Positions 10,542 to 15,043 are shown, counted from the first letter of the stretch. The stretch is 34,383 bases of DNA from Natronomonas salinimetallica (GCF_013839515.1 NZ_JACDNQ010000013.1:1-34383), one strand, 5' to 3'. Notes: generated from the sequence alone by a model not told the origin. A program made the numbers and translations.

Positions 10542-11120
10542 TCACCGTCCCGACGGGGCGACGTGCAACACTCGGAGTCGCCCCGCGCCGGCACCCAGAC
10601 AGAACCCCGAAAAGTGGGCCGCGAGCGCGACCCCCGGTGCGGCCGTCGCCGCGGTGAGAATCGCCGCGAGCACGGCGAAGACGGCGAACCGGCCGCGGCG
10701 GCCGAGCGGGAGCCACGCGAGCACGCGCTCGGAGGCGCGGTTCCCGACGAGCAGGTATCCGAGCAGCGCGAATATCGCGCCGCTGGATCCGAGGACGGCG
10801 GCCCCGCCGAACGGGACCGCGACGACGACCTGGACGATCCCGGCGACCGACCCGGTGCTGAGAAAAAAGGCGTGGAACCGCACTGTCGTCGTCACGGACG
10901 CCACGAGCGGCCCGACGACGAGCAGCGCGAGGACGTTCGCGAGGAGGTGGCCGGGGCCGCCGTGGGCGTAGACGCTCGTGAGGAGCGTCCACGGCTGGTG
11001 GTCGAGCGGGAGCGACAGCGCGAACACCCCCGGGCCGACGCCGACGGCGCCGCCGGCCGCCTGGGCGGCGAACGTGCCGAGACAGAGCACGAGGGTCGTA
11101 AAGACCGGACGGAGAGCCAT
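10542..11120 (-). CDS. rhomboid-family intramembrane serine protease
   Basis: 192 residues with about six membrane segments, the minimal rhomboid core. Catalytic features are visible: the HxxxxHxxxN motif in VYAHGGPGHLLANV (His53, His58, Asn62), the nucleophile in GSSGAIFALLGY (Ser113) and the partner His169 in AAHFSGFCLG. It would cleave single-pass membrane proteins within the bilayer. The next gene in its direction is rnp3, 95 nt downstream; the DUF368 gene lies 24 nt upstream on the same strand. This position suggests read-through from the aglB-DUF368 unit. In Haloferax volcanii a rhomboid protease (RhoII) has been linked to S-layer N-glycosylation, so the neighbourhood fits, though orthology is untested. 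Confidence 0.92.
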   Translation of the reverse strand: MALRPVFTTLVLCLGTFAAQAAGGAVGVGPGVFALSLPLDHQPWTLLTSVYAHGGPGHLLANVLALLVVGPLVASVTTTVRFHAFFLSTGSVAGIVQVVVAVPFGGAAVLGSSGAIFALLGYLLVGNRASERVLAWLPLGRRGRFAVFAVLAAILTAATAAPGVALAAHFSGFCLGAGAGRLRVLHVAPSGR

Positions 11121-11144: not shown

Positions 11145-12089
11145 TTAGTACTGCAGTTCGTCGGTGTAGTGGTCCAATACCGACACCACGGCCACGCCAC
11201 AGACGACGGAGACGCCGATCGTCGCCACGACCCCCACGGAGACCGAGCCGGCGTTTTCGGCCACCTCGCGGATCGGGAGTCTGAGCGCGCCGAGCATCAG
11301 GCTAACGAGGAAAACGAACGTCGCGTCTCTATACCGTTCGAGCGCCGCCCGAACGACGTAGGCGACCGAAAACAGCCCGACGAGCGCGCCGGAGCCGAAC
11401 GCGAGGAGGGGGACCAGCGACTCGACGAGCGGCTGGACGTTCCCGCTCAGAGCGGCGTCGATTCCGCCGAGGACCCGCCGGGGGATCCCGCTGACGTACT
11501 CGTATTGGCCCATGACGAGCAACAGAAACGCCCCGGAGATCCCCGGGAGTACCATCGCGGAGATGGCGACCATCCCGGCGACGAACAGTACCGGCAGCGT
11601 CGTCGGCCTCGCGCCGGCGAGAGACGGGTCGGTGACGAGAAAAGCCCCGGAAAAGCCGGCCGCCGCGACGAGTACCCGTCGGGCGGTGCCGGCGTCGACG
11701 TAGCGATACAGGACGACCGCGGAGGCACCGATGAGCCCCGAAAAGAAGGCGTAGGTCGGAGCCGGATACCGCGTAACCGCGACGTTCATCGCCGTCGCGA
11801 CCGTTGCCGCGGCCGACAACACCCCCGCTCCGAGCACGAACAGGAACGGGGCGTCCGCCCGGAGGAGGTCGCCCACGAGGGCCGCACGCCCCCGCCGGGT
11901 ATGAATCACGCGGAGGTGCCCGAGCGAGCGGAGATCGAGCGACGTCAGCGCGGCGATCAGCCGCTCGTAGACGCCGAGTATCACCGCGATCGTTCCGCCG
12001 GAGACGCCCGGAACGGTGTCGGCCGCCCCCATGCACGCACCTTTCAGGTAGACCGAGAGCCAGGATCGGATCCCGGCACCTCGGCTCAT
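11145..12089 (-). CDS. DUF368 (PopT-type) membrane protein, probable polyprenyl-phosphate translocase
   Basis: 314 residues with about nine hydrophobic segments. The family hallmark is the N-terminal KGACMGAADTVPGVSGGT (16-33), echoed in the second half by VLPGISGAFLLLVMGQYEYV, giving the inverted pseudo-repeat of this family. Bacterial DUF368 proteins (PopT) were shown to recycle undecaprenyl phosphate across the membrane. Its start ATGA overlaps the aglB stop by 4 nt, so the two are translationally coupled. I infer that it returns dolichyl phosphate, released outside by AglB, to the cytoplasmic face. That role in archaea is inference. Confidence 0.88.
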   Translation of the reverse strand: MSRGAGIRSWLSVYLKGACMGAADTVPGVSGGTIAVILGVYERLIAALTSLDLRSLGHLRVIHTRRGRAALVGDLLRADAPFLFVLGAGVLSAAATVATAMNVAVTRYPAPTYAFFSGLIGASAVVLYRYVDAGTARRVLVAAAGFSGAFLVTDPSLAGARPTTLPVLFVAGMVAISAMVLPGISGAFLLLVMGQYEYVSGIPRRVLGGIDAALSGNVQPLVESLVPLLAFGSGALVGLFSVAYVVRAALERYRDATFVFLVSLMLGALRLPIREVAENAGSVSVGVVATIGVSVVCGVAVVSVLDHYTDELQY

Positions 12090-14923
12090 TCAGCGCGTAC
12101 GCCCCGGCTCTCCTCGACGGTTCCGTCCTGGGTCGATCCGTCCTGGGTCGATCCGTCCTGGGTCGTTTCGCCTCCGGGCTGGGCTTCGAGCTGCGGGACC
12201 TCGAGTTCGACTGTGACGGGCGTCTCGTCCTCGCCGACGACGTGGCCTTCGGTCACGTCGGCCTGGCCGAAGGCACCCGCCTCGGGTGCGACGAACTGGT
12301 AGCTGCTGTTGGCGCGTACGTCGACGTTCGTGTGGCCGGTTTCGGGACCGTACTCGTCGTAGCCGGTCGTCGAGTACGGGACGGTCATCTCGAAGTTGCC
12401 CTCGGCATCGGTGTCGGCGTACTGGGTGTAGGTGAACGTCTCGTTGGTCGCACCGACCTTCATCTCGACGCTCGCTCGAACCTCGGTGTTCTCCGGCCCG
12501 CTGCCGTCGATCGTCGCGCCGTCGACGCGCTCGAAGGTCTTCACCCACGATTCGTTGTCACCGATCGTCTGGCCGGGGGCGAGCCGATCGAACGGCGACT
12601 GGGTGGTCGGCCCGCCGGCGTGGACCAACCGGAAGTGTTCGAGCGCTTCGGTCCGTTCTGCTTGCTGTCCCAAGACGCCGCCGTGGACGACGGTCGGGTC
12701 GTTTTCGGCGGCCTCGCGTGCGGCCTCGACGCTGTCGTGTTGGGTGAACAGGTCGTCGAGCCCGGAGGCCCCCTCCGGAAGCGTCGCGACGCCGTCCGCC
12801 TCGGAGTACTGCCCGAAGTTGATGGTCACCGGGCCGGCCTCCTGTGCGCTCCCGTGGTGTTGATACAGCCGGACGCGCATGCTCTCGTAGCCGCGCTGGG
12901 TATGGGCACCGTAGAGTCGCTGACCCTGTTGGTTCACCACCTGGACGCCGACGTCCCCGCTGCTCACGTTGTGGCGGGATTCGAACGCCGTCGGGGCGTT
13001 GTACTTTTGCGTACCGGCGTAGCCGAGCGGGTAGTCGACCATCACGTATCGGACGCCCTCGCCGTCGGGCTGGTCCTCGTCGAGGATCTCGATCGCGCGT
13101 TCTTCCTCCCCGGCGAGCAGGAAGTCGGCGGACTCGGTGGCGTGTTGCTGGAAGGGATTCGCGACCGGAACCCGCTCGCCGCGGGTCGTGATATAGTGGC
13201 CGTAGTCCCACCACGCGAGCACGCCGTACTCGCCGTCCACGTACTCAAAGTCGTCCGTGTTCTCATAGGTCCCATAATAGTCGAGACGCGGATCGTCCCC
13301 GGAGCCATACGCGCCGACCTCCGGCGTCTCCTCGGAGAGCCAATCGAGGCTCTCGGACCACTGTTGCATTTCGCCCGGCTGGGACGCGCCCTCGGCCGTC
13401 GAGAGCGTCGCCCCTGTTACGACGAGCGGCCCGGTAATGACGAAGAGGATCGCGAGGACGATGAGTATCTGATAGGGTTTGACCGCCGTGATGTCCGTAC
13501 GGACGTTGTCGAGTTCGACGAACTGATACACCCAGCCGACGACGTAGGCGTTTCCGGCGGCGACGGCGACGACGAAGTGTATCTCGAAGCGTTGCTGAGT
13601 CAGGGTGAACAACAGCATGAGCCCACCGAAGACCGCGACGAGCAGGTAATCGGCCCGCGGGCGCGTCCGCGAGACGACCCGGTACAACACGAGTACGAGT
13701 CCGAGCACCGCGGTGTAGAATCCGAGGCCGTAATTCCGATAGAACAGCGAGAGCGGGTCGCTCGGTGCCTGGGCTTCGCCGATGGTCGCGATAGTATCAG
13801 TCGTCCCGAGGCCGGCGACGCGCTCGAACTGACGGATAAAGAACCCGAGCGTATCGGGCGTGACGACGGCGAGGACAGCGACGCCGACGAGCCCCGAGCC
13901 CACGATACCGACCGGGTAAGCCGCCCGAGGAAGCCCCCGTTGCTCCCACAGGCGGGCGACCGCGGCCATGAACGCGGCGCCGACGGCGACGGCCACCGCG
14001 AGGAGGGGGTGAGCGATCGAGTAGTCGGTCGGCTGTAGCCCGGTCGTCTGCAGGAAGGGGGTGATCAACACCGCCGCCGTCAGCATCGCAACGACCGAGG
14101 GGATCGCGACGTGATCCGGGCTGTGGCCACGGAGGAACTCGAGCGAGAGGGCGAAAAAGAGGAATACCCCGAAGAGTCCGAAGAGGAAGATCGCCGGCGG
14201 CCAGTTGAGGACCGCGAGCGTGAGTACGACACCGAGAGCTACGGCCCACTTCATGGGCTCGCGGAGCAGCCCGAACTCGCGCGTCCGGATGAACTCGTAG
14301 ATCACGCCCTCCCGCTGTGCGACGGCGAGGAACTTCATCCCGACGGCGAGGACGACGAGCGAAAAGAACACCTCCGCGATCTGGTGGTCGAACGACCCCG
14401 CGACGCTTCGAGTGAGGAACATCCCCGGCGTCAACGCGAGGACGAGCACGGCGATGAGGCCGCCGAAGCGGCCGCCGAGACGCTTGCCGACGTAGTACAT
14501 CGGGATCGCACACAGCATCGCGATCACCGGGGCGGCAAACAGCGTCGTCGTGACGACCGTCTCCTGGGAGGGCGATCCGAGTCCGACGACCAACGCGACC
14601 GTCGCGACCGCCTGATCGAAGATGGTGCCGAACTGTCCGGCACGTGCGCCGACGTCGAACCCGGTCCAGGGGTCGAACGGCATGGTGGCGGGGAAGTTCT
14701 CGATGACGTAGTTCGTCGATCGGTAGTGGTAGTACGCGTCGTTCCCGTTGTAGAGGGGTTCCCCGTCCGCACCGATATGGTTCGCGTAGTTGCGCACCCG
14801 GACCCACAACATGAACGCCATGAGGGCTGCGAGGACGGGGATGTGATACAGACGATAGACAGTATCGATCTGCGACTCGTACTCCGCGAGTCGCTCTTCG
14901 AACGCGTCGAACCGCTGGCTCAT
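12086..14923 (-). CDS. aglB: dolichyl-monophosphooligosaccharide-protein glycotransferase AglB
   Basis: STT3-family oligosaccharyltransferase that transfers lipid-linked glycan to Asn in N-X-S/T sequons of surface proteins. The 945-residue product has a multi-helix membrane half (about 25-480). Its first external loop carries YNGNDAYYHYRSTNYVIE, with the metal-binding Asp. The soluble C-terminal half has the WWDYG signature (571-575, within AWWDYGHYITTRGERVPV). A beta-rich domain follows, then a tail with three TQDG repeats and an acidic end. The ATG at 14923 gives MSQRFDAFEERLAEYESQID; an in-frame ATG at 14986 would put the promoter inside the gene. It heads the unit aglB-DUF368-rhomboid. 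Confidence 0.95.
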   Translation of the reverse strand: MSQRFDAFEERLAEYESQIDTVYRLYHIPVLAALMAFMLWVRVRNYANHIGADGEPLYNGNDAYYHYRSTNYVIENFPATMPFDPWTGFDVGARAGQFGTIFDQAVATVALVVGLGSPSQETVVTTTLFAAPVIAMLCAIPMYYVGKRLGGRFGGLIAVLVLALTPGMFLTRSVAGSFDHQIAEVFFSLVVLAVGMKFLAVAQREGVIYEFIRTREFGLLREPMKWAVALGVVLTLAVLNWPPAIFLFGLFGVFLFFALSLEFLRGHSPDHVAIPSVVAMLTAAVLITPFLQTTGLQPTDYSIAHPLLAVAVAVGAAFMAAVARLWEQRGLPRAAYPVGIVGSGLVGVAVLAVVTPDTLGFFIRQFERVAGLGTTDTIATIGEAQAPSDPLSLFYRNYGLGFYTAVLGLVLVLYRVVSRTRPRADYLLVAVFGGLMLLFTLTQQRFEIHFVVAVAAGNAYVVGWVYQFVELDNVRTDITAVKPYQILIVLAILFVITGPLVVTGATLSTAEGASQPGEMQQWSESLDWLSEETPEVGAYGSGDDPRLDYYGTYENTDDFEYVDGEYGVLAWWDYGHYITTRGERVPVANPFQQHATESADFLLAGEEERAIEILDEDQPDGEGVRYVMVDYPLGYAGTQKYNAPTAFESRHNVSSGDVGVQVVNQQGQRLYGAHTQRGYESMRVRLYQHHGSAQEAGPVTINFGQYSEADGVATLPEGASGLDDLFTQHDSVEAAREAAENDPTVVHGGVLGQQAERTEALEHFRLVHAGGPTTQSPFDRLAPGQTIGDNESWVKTFERVDGATIDGSGPENTEVRASVEMKVGATNETFTYTQYADTDAEGNFEMTVPYSTTGYDEYGPETGHTNVDVRANSSYQFVAPEAGAFGQADVTEGHVVGEDETPVTVELEVPQLEAQPGGETTQDGSTQDGSTQDGTVEESRGVRAE
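12121..12166 (-). repeat. 15-bp tandem repeat at the aglB 3' end
   Basis: Three near-identical 15-bp units on the minus strand encode TQDGS-TQDGS-TQDGT just before the acidic C-terminus of AglB. As 15 is a multiple of 3, changes in copy number keep the frame. Confidence 0.75.
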
Positions 14924-14960: not shown

Positions 14961-15043
14961 CCATTACGCTTCGGAGCGCGTATCAAAATCGGGGATGCCG
15001 GACGGATCGGTTCACCCCCGACCGGCGGGTCGACGGGGGCCGC

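Follow-up and report, generated by a model that had tools for sequence, protein, structure and literature searches.

A DUF368 (PopT-family) gene paired with aglB in Halobacteria encodes a candidate transporter for dolichyl-phosphate return

In the haloarchaeon Natronomonas salinimetallica, the gene encoding the archaeal oligosaccharyltransferase AglB overlaps a gene whose product is a DUF368 (PopT)-family membrane protein, and the two genes are found together in most families of the class Halobacteria. The DUF368 protein is probably an archaeal PopT-type transporter, co-expressed with AglB, that returns dolichyl phosphate to the inner leaflet of the membrane for reloading. This reading is based on family membership, the conserved repeat motifs of the protein, the linkage of its gene with aglB and published work in which the Haloferax volcanii homolog at least partly complements a DUF368 mutant of Vibrio cholerae. 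Dolichyl phosphate is the putative substrate and outer to inner leaflet the putative direction of transport, and the haloarchaeal proteins may also depend on sodium or pH.

The window (the whole stretch of DNA analysed, 34,383 nt) covers the opening 34 kb of contig C5, part of a haloarchaeal genome of 2.78 Mb. It contains the following features:

10542-11120, minus strand: rhomboid-family protease gene (PF01694, 1.3e-20), 24 nt 3' of the DUF368 gene and outside the conserved unit
11145-12089, minus strand: DUF368/PopT-family gene, 314 aa (PF04018, E=1.7e-58), candidate dolichyl-phosphate transporter
11502-11558, minus strand: repeat motif 2 of the DUF368 protein, residues 178-196 (AMVLPGISGAFLLLVMGQY), a loop between helices 165-180 and 186-192 (alignment, model)
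11967-12032, minus strand: repeat motif 1 of the DUF368 protein, residues 20-41 (MGAADTVPGVSGGTIAVILGVY), a loop between helices 7-24 and 31-38 (alignment, model)
12086-12089, minus strand: 4-nt overlap ATGA of the aglB stop (TGA, 12088-12086) and the DUF368 start (ATG, 12089-12087), read from the sequence
12086-14923, minus strand: aglB, archaeal oligosaccharyltransferase, 945 aa from the ATG at 14923 (Pfam, NCBIfam)
13199-13213, minus strand: WWDYG catalytic motif of AglB, residues 571-575 (translation)

AglB matches the Pfam families STT3 (1.1e-25), AglB core (3.9e-18) and AglB_L1 (7.6e-16), and exceeds the cut-off of the NCBIfam model archaeo_STT3 TIGR04154 (815 bits vs 450), for which it is the sole match in the source genome. 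Its ATG start at 14923 agrees with the earlier note, and an in-frame TTG lies ahead of it at 14986. At the C-terminus (12100-12150, minus strand), a short in-frame tandem repeat in the DNA codes for GSTQDGSTQDGSTQDG. Across the aglB/DUF368 junction the minus strand reads ...CGCGCTGAATGAGCCGAGG..., which bears out the shared 4 nt described in that note. The identical -4 overlap is present in six further genomes when starts are picked by a simple rule. Co-expression and coupled translation of the two genes are suggested. The DUF368 gene was found as a single copy in the source genome. The rhomboid protein scores weakly against the rhombosortase model TIGR03902, under its cut-off.

The DUF368 protein reaches 198.5 bits against PF04018 (cut-off 26), a family now described as undecaprenyl phosphate translocase-like. 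Scores against the NCBIfam PopT equivalogs NF052563 (83.4 bits) and NF052564 (163.5 bits) are both under the 400-bit cut-off, and by these models the protein is therefore a PF04018 member and not a PopT equivalog. PF04018 is the sole match at E<=0.01, and PF09335 (VTT, DedA/UptA) is absent. The two halves of the protein are homologous (internal repeat, hhalign probability 98.1%, 121 columns), and each carries one PG-x-SG motif (residues 27-31 and 182-186). Across 78 archaeal and bacterial relatives, P27, G28, S30, G31, T33 and A35 are invariant in motif 1, as are G183, S185, G186 and Y196 in motif 2, with P182 nearly so. The AlphaFold2 model has a mean pLDDT of 93.9 and a pTM of 0.88; homologous halves, PG(V/I)SG loops and the broken helices of the model would suit an alternating-access carrier. 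A search of the PDB by sequence gave no relatives, and Foldseek with the model against solved structures gave none at E<=0.001. VIA-align Z scores did not exceed 9.3, a level that common helical arrangements also reach. Assignment by fold was dropped, as solved structures gave no clear match.

In bacteria, the return of undecaprenyl phosphate is ascribed to DUF368 proteins, on the evidence of an amphomycin probe and lipid data, and fusions of DUF368 with PAP2/BacA are known (PMC9876793). The H. volcanii protein HVO_RS12060 complements a V. cholerae DUF368 mutant at least partly (PMC9876793). VCA0040 of V. cholerae, SAOUHSC_00846 of Staphylococcus aureus and HVO_RS12060 share PF04018 and both PG-x-SG motifs with the window protein; the aligned bacterial members are about 29-37% identical to it, and it is, like them, a helical membrane protein. 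In contrast to the bacterial PopT proteins, the native carrier in haloarchaea is presumably dolichyl phosphate and the gene lies behind aglB. Archaeal DUF368 proteins, save two very divergent ones, also form a clade apart from the bacterial proteins sampled (87/98 in the smaller, more careful of two trees), and those of haloarchaea have a longer loop after the second motif than those of other archaea. The literature consulted yielded no transport, lipid or glycan measurement made on an archaeal DUF368 protein in its native host.

As outlined in PMC3871713, the N-glycan of H. volcanii is assembled on dolichol phosphate and transferred by AglB outside the cell, and mannose comes on a second dolichol phosphate. 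Transfer by AglB would free dolichyl phosphate at the outer face, as would mannose transfer from the second carrier, and other dolichyl-phosphate-using enzymes probably also release their carrier outside. DUF368 would bring this dolichyl phosphate across the membrane from the outer leaflet to the inner (cytoplasmic) one, where it would become available for new loading. The earlier note spoke of the missing flippase step of archaeal N-glycosylation; return of the empty carrier is the best reading of that step, but not export of the loaded lipid, a step with AglR/Agl15 as its proposed agents. That DUF368 itself exports glycan-loaded dolichyl phosphate, or moves another anionic lipid, is highly improbable. 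A two-repeat membrane protein adjoining an oligosaccharyltransferase gene would be in keeping with such a role, and the Haloferax export flippase is not settled (PMC3871713 and PMC4335974). However, what the bacterial members return is undecaprenyl phosphate without a load, and the H. volcanii protein functions in V. cholerae, where the archaeal glycan is absent (PMC9876793); AglR and Agl15 are moreover already proposed as exporters.

The survey of DUF368-aglB adjacency proposed in the earlier note was run on 116 haloarchaeal genomes (class Halobacteria). AglB is present in 116/116 and DUF368 in 115/116, and in 75/116 the next gene 3' of aglB is a same-strand DUF368 gene; in another four DUF368 lies <=2.6 kb from aglB. 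Linked examples include Halorubrum coriense, Haloglomus irregulare, Halorhabdus amylolytica, Haladaptatus salinisoli and Halolamina salifodinae, and the 75 adjacent pairs are spread over 8/9 families and 30/46 genera. By an estimate that takes ~3000 genes per genome, random placement predicts far less than one adjacent case. The distance from the aglB stop to the DUF368 start is -4 to +168 nt in the adjacent pairs, with overlap in 20/75 and a spacing of <=6 nt, overlaps included, in 48/75; since DUF368 starts were assigned by a simple rule, individual distances may differ. The surroundings of the pair vary. At 37 linked loci, a rhomboid gene is a neighbour in 2/37, RNase P p30 in 3/37 and the two upstream neighbours of the window in 0/37. 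The flanking genes are thus shuffled and the pair has been kept amid changing surroundings, which speaks against shared ancestry as the sole cause of the pairing. With presence at two loci only, the rhomboid gene is ruled out as a member of the conserved unit, and its reading as an extension of an envelope theme is not supported.

That the pair is a chance relic of ancient gene order with no functional meaning appears most improbable. Linkage is seen in one class only and could stem from a single event, but the pair has outlived the rearrangement of every neighbour examined, and close or overlapping spacing in the majority of adjacent pairs likewise argues against an accident.

The history of the pairing was read from a tree that includes each of the 121 haloarchaeal DUF368 proteins, with bacterial and thermoplasmatal relatives to place the root. 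One clade of 37 genes has no aglB-linked member (SH-aLRT 98). Among the 84 genes outside this clade, 75 are adjacent to aglB, four are near and five are unlinked, so that 79/84 lie <=2.6 kb from aglB. In the smaller tree the unlinked clade (100/98) is nested among haloarchaeal DUF368 genes, which rules out an independent bacterial origin. Because of this nesting, the phylogeny is most simply read as linkage being the older state within the class and the unlinked clade being derived. Genes of the unlinked clade are the sole DUF368 kind in 31 genomes and occur with the linked kind in five. The function of DUF368 in the 31 genomes has therefore been replaced and not lost, and the pattern suggests that a paralogue or a transferred copy with the same task has displaced the linked gene. 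No DUF368 remnants were seen beside aglB in the 11 unlinked loci inspected. One genome (G016; loci L003 and L004) carries two genes of the unlinked clade and zero of the linked kind.

The unlinked clade bears on whether DUF368 serves AglB in particular. In one alternative, with chances about evenly balanced, the protein recycles polyprenyl phosphate for every dolichyl-phosphate pathway of the cell (N-glycans, mannose transfer by AglD/AglS, exopolysaccharides) and is needed at high salt or alkaline pH; its position after aglB would then be a matter of operon economy and would not mark it as a dedicated partner of AglB. This alternative overlaps the main reading and differs from it only in dedication to AglB. 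The 31 genomes with the unlinked clade alone and the five with both kinds indicate that adjacency is not required, and the neighbours of unlinked-clade genes, where examined, are unrelated genes. Sit et al. tie DUF368 to sodium and alkaline conditions and report its enrichment in Halobacteria (PMC9876793). However, fully general recycling leaves the choice of aglB unexplained, given ancestral linkage in 79/84 genes with flanks turning over. The narrower proposal is rather doubtful: AglB and DUF368 might form a dedicated, co-translated unit, possibly in contact, in which released dolichyl phosphate would be handed straight to the transporter.

DedA proteins are the other candidates for carrier return. 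For UptA/DedA (PF09335) the same step has been proposed in bacteria and re-entrant loops have also been described, but this is a different family from that of the window protein. DedA/VTT genes are present in 116/116 haloarchaeal genomes, and redundancy with DUF368 is therefore likely. The recycling role suggested in the earlier note is supported by membership in the PopT/DUF368 family, the ancestral pair and the V. cholerae complementation (PMC9876793), but DUF368 is not the sole candidate for it. In Pseudomonas, DUF368 and a DedA flippase hardly ever occur together and are interchangeable, and a DUF368 protein can take the place of the flippase (PMC12893004). It is unlikely that DedA proteins perform most dolichyl-phosphate return in archaea with DUF368 as a conditional back-up. 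Such a division of labor would fit the universal presence of DedA, which extends to the one genome without detected DUF368, and the finding that V. cholerae and S. aureus depend on DUF368 chiefly under alkaline conditions and on DedA at lower pH (PMC9876793). However, no DedA gene adjoins aglB among the matches listed, although a small number are no more than about 10 kb away from it, and the near-universal occurrence of DUF368 argues against a dispensable back-up. The exceptional genome (G021), a fragmented assembly of 120 contigs and 1.9 Mb, has AglB and DedA and may rely on DedA proteins; a PIN-domain gene lies directly 3' of its aglB (locus L041, 6912-10489).

In Haloferacaceae, a UDP-glucose dehydrogenase gene sits between aglB and DUF368 in three genomes. 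Three further genomes, and Halobellus rufus, have DUF368 next to such a gene, with aglB elsewhere or outside the stretch of DNA examined there (the AglM-type genes beside DUF368 are at loci L033, L034, L035, L037, L038, L039 and L120). AglM, an enzyme of N-glycosylation in Haloferax, has UDP-glucose dehydrogenase activity. In one further genome (G043) the insertion between aglB and DUF368 contains no recognisable families. The N-glycosylation clusters of H. volcanii and Halobacterium salinarum are likewise anchored by aglB, with AglM-type neighbours in Haloferacaceae, and DUF368 is not mentioned in the consulted passages of their published descriptions.

No linkage was found outside Halobacteria. 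DUF368 was detected in 89/295 genomes sampled from the phylum, 37 of them outside the class, and was undetected in 206/295, where N-glycosylation must therefore do without it. STT3 is present in 37/37 of the non-haloarchaeal carriers, and DUF368 lies beside STT3 in 0/37. Absence of linkage in other archaea, which the earlier note had named as refuting evidence, narrows the proposal to haloarchaea and does not overturn it within them. In four genomes of one family (f28), DUF368 is 13-15 kb from STT3; this was discounted, as the intervening genes are mostly housekeeping (TiaS, chaperonin and histidine kinase at the locus examined, with one glycosyltransferase close to STT3). The DUF368 proteins of another non-haloarchaeal family (f21; L097:4911-5786 and L098:4821-5696) are extremely divergent, with a branch length of about 3, and may form a distinct subfamily.

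The DUF368 family, its general role and the activity of an archaeal member in a bacterium are already known. The present analysis adds the linkage of aglB and DUF368 in haloarchaea, measured and traced as ancestral, together with the history of its replacement, although the synteny may have been noticed earlier. The abstract of Roney and Rudner reportedly mentions syntenic analyses. The text of PMC9876793 mentions dolichol phosphate in general, and the word synteny is absent from it. The step of archaeal N-glycosylation at issue is the return of the carrier across the membrane, and dolichol recycling is discussed for eukaryotes too. A dedicated AglB-DUF368 unit, if true, would be the first dedicated dolichyl-phosphate return flippase in archaea. 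With a conserved pair in genetically tractable haloarchaea, carrier return becomes simply testable by deletion and lipid analysis. Haloarchaea lack peptidoglycan, and dolichyl-phosphate return would offer a reason for the near-universal presence of DUF368 among them.
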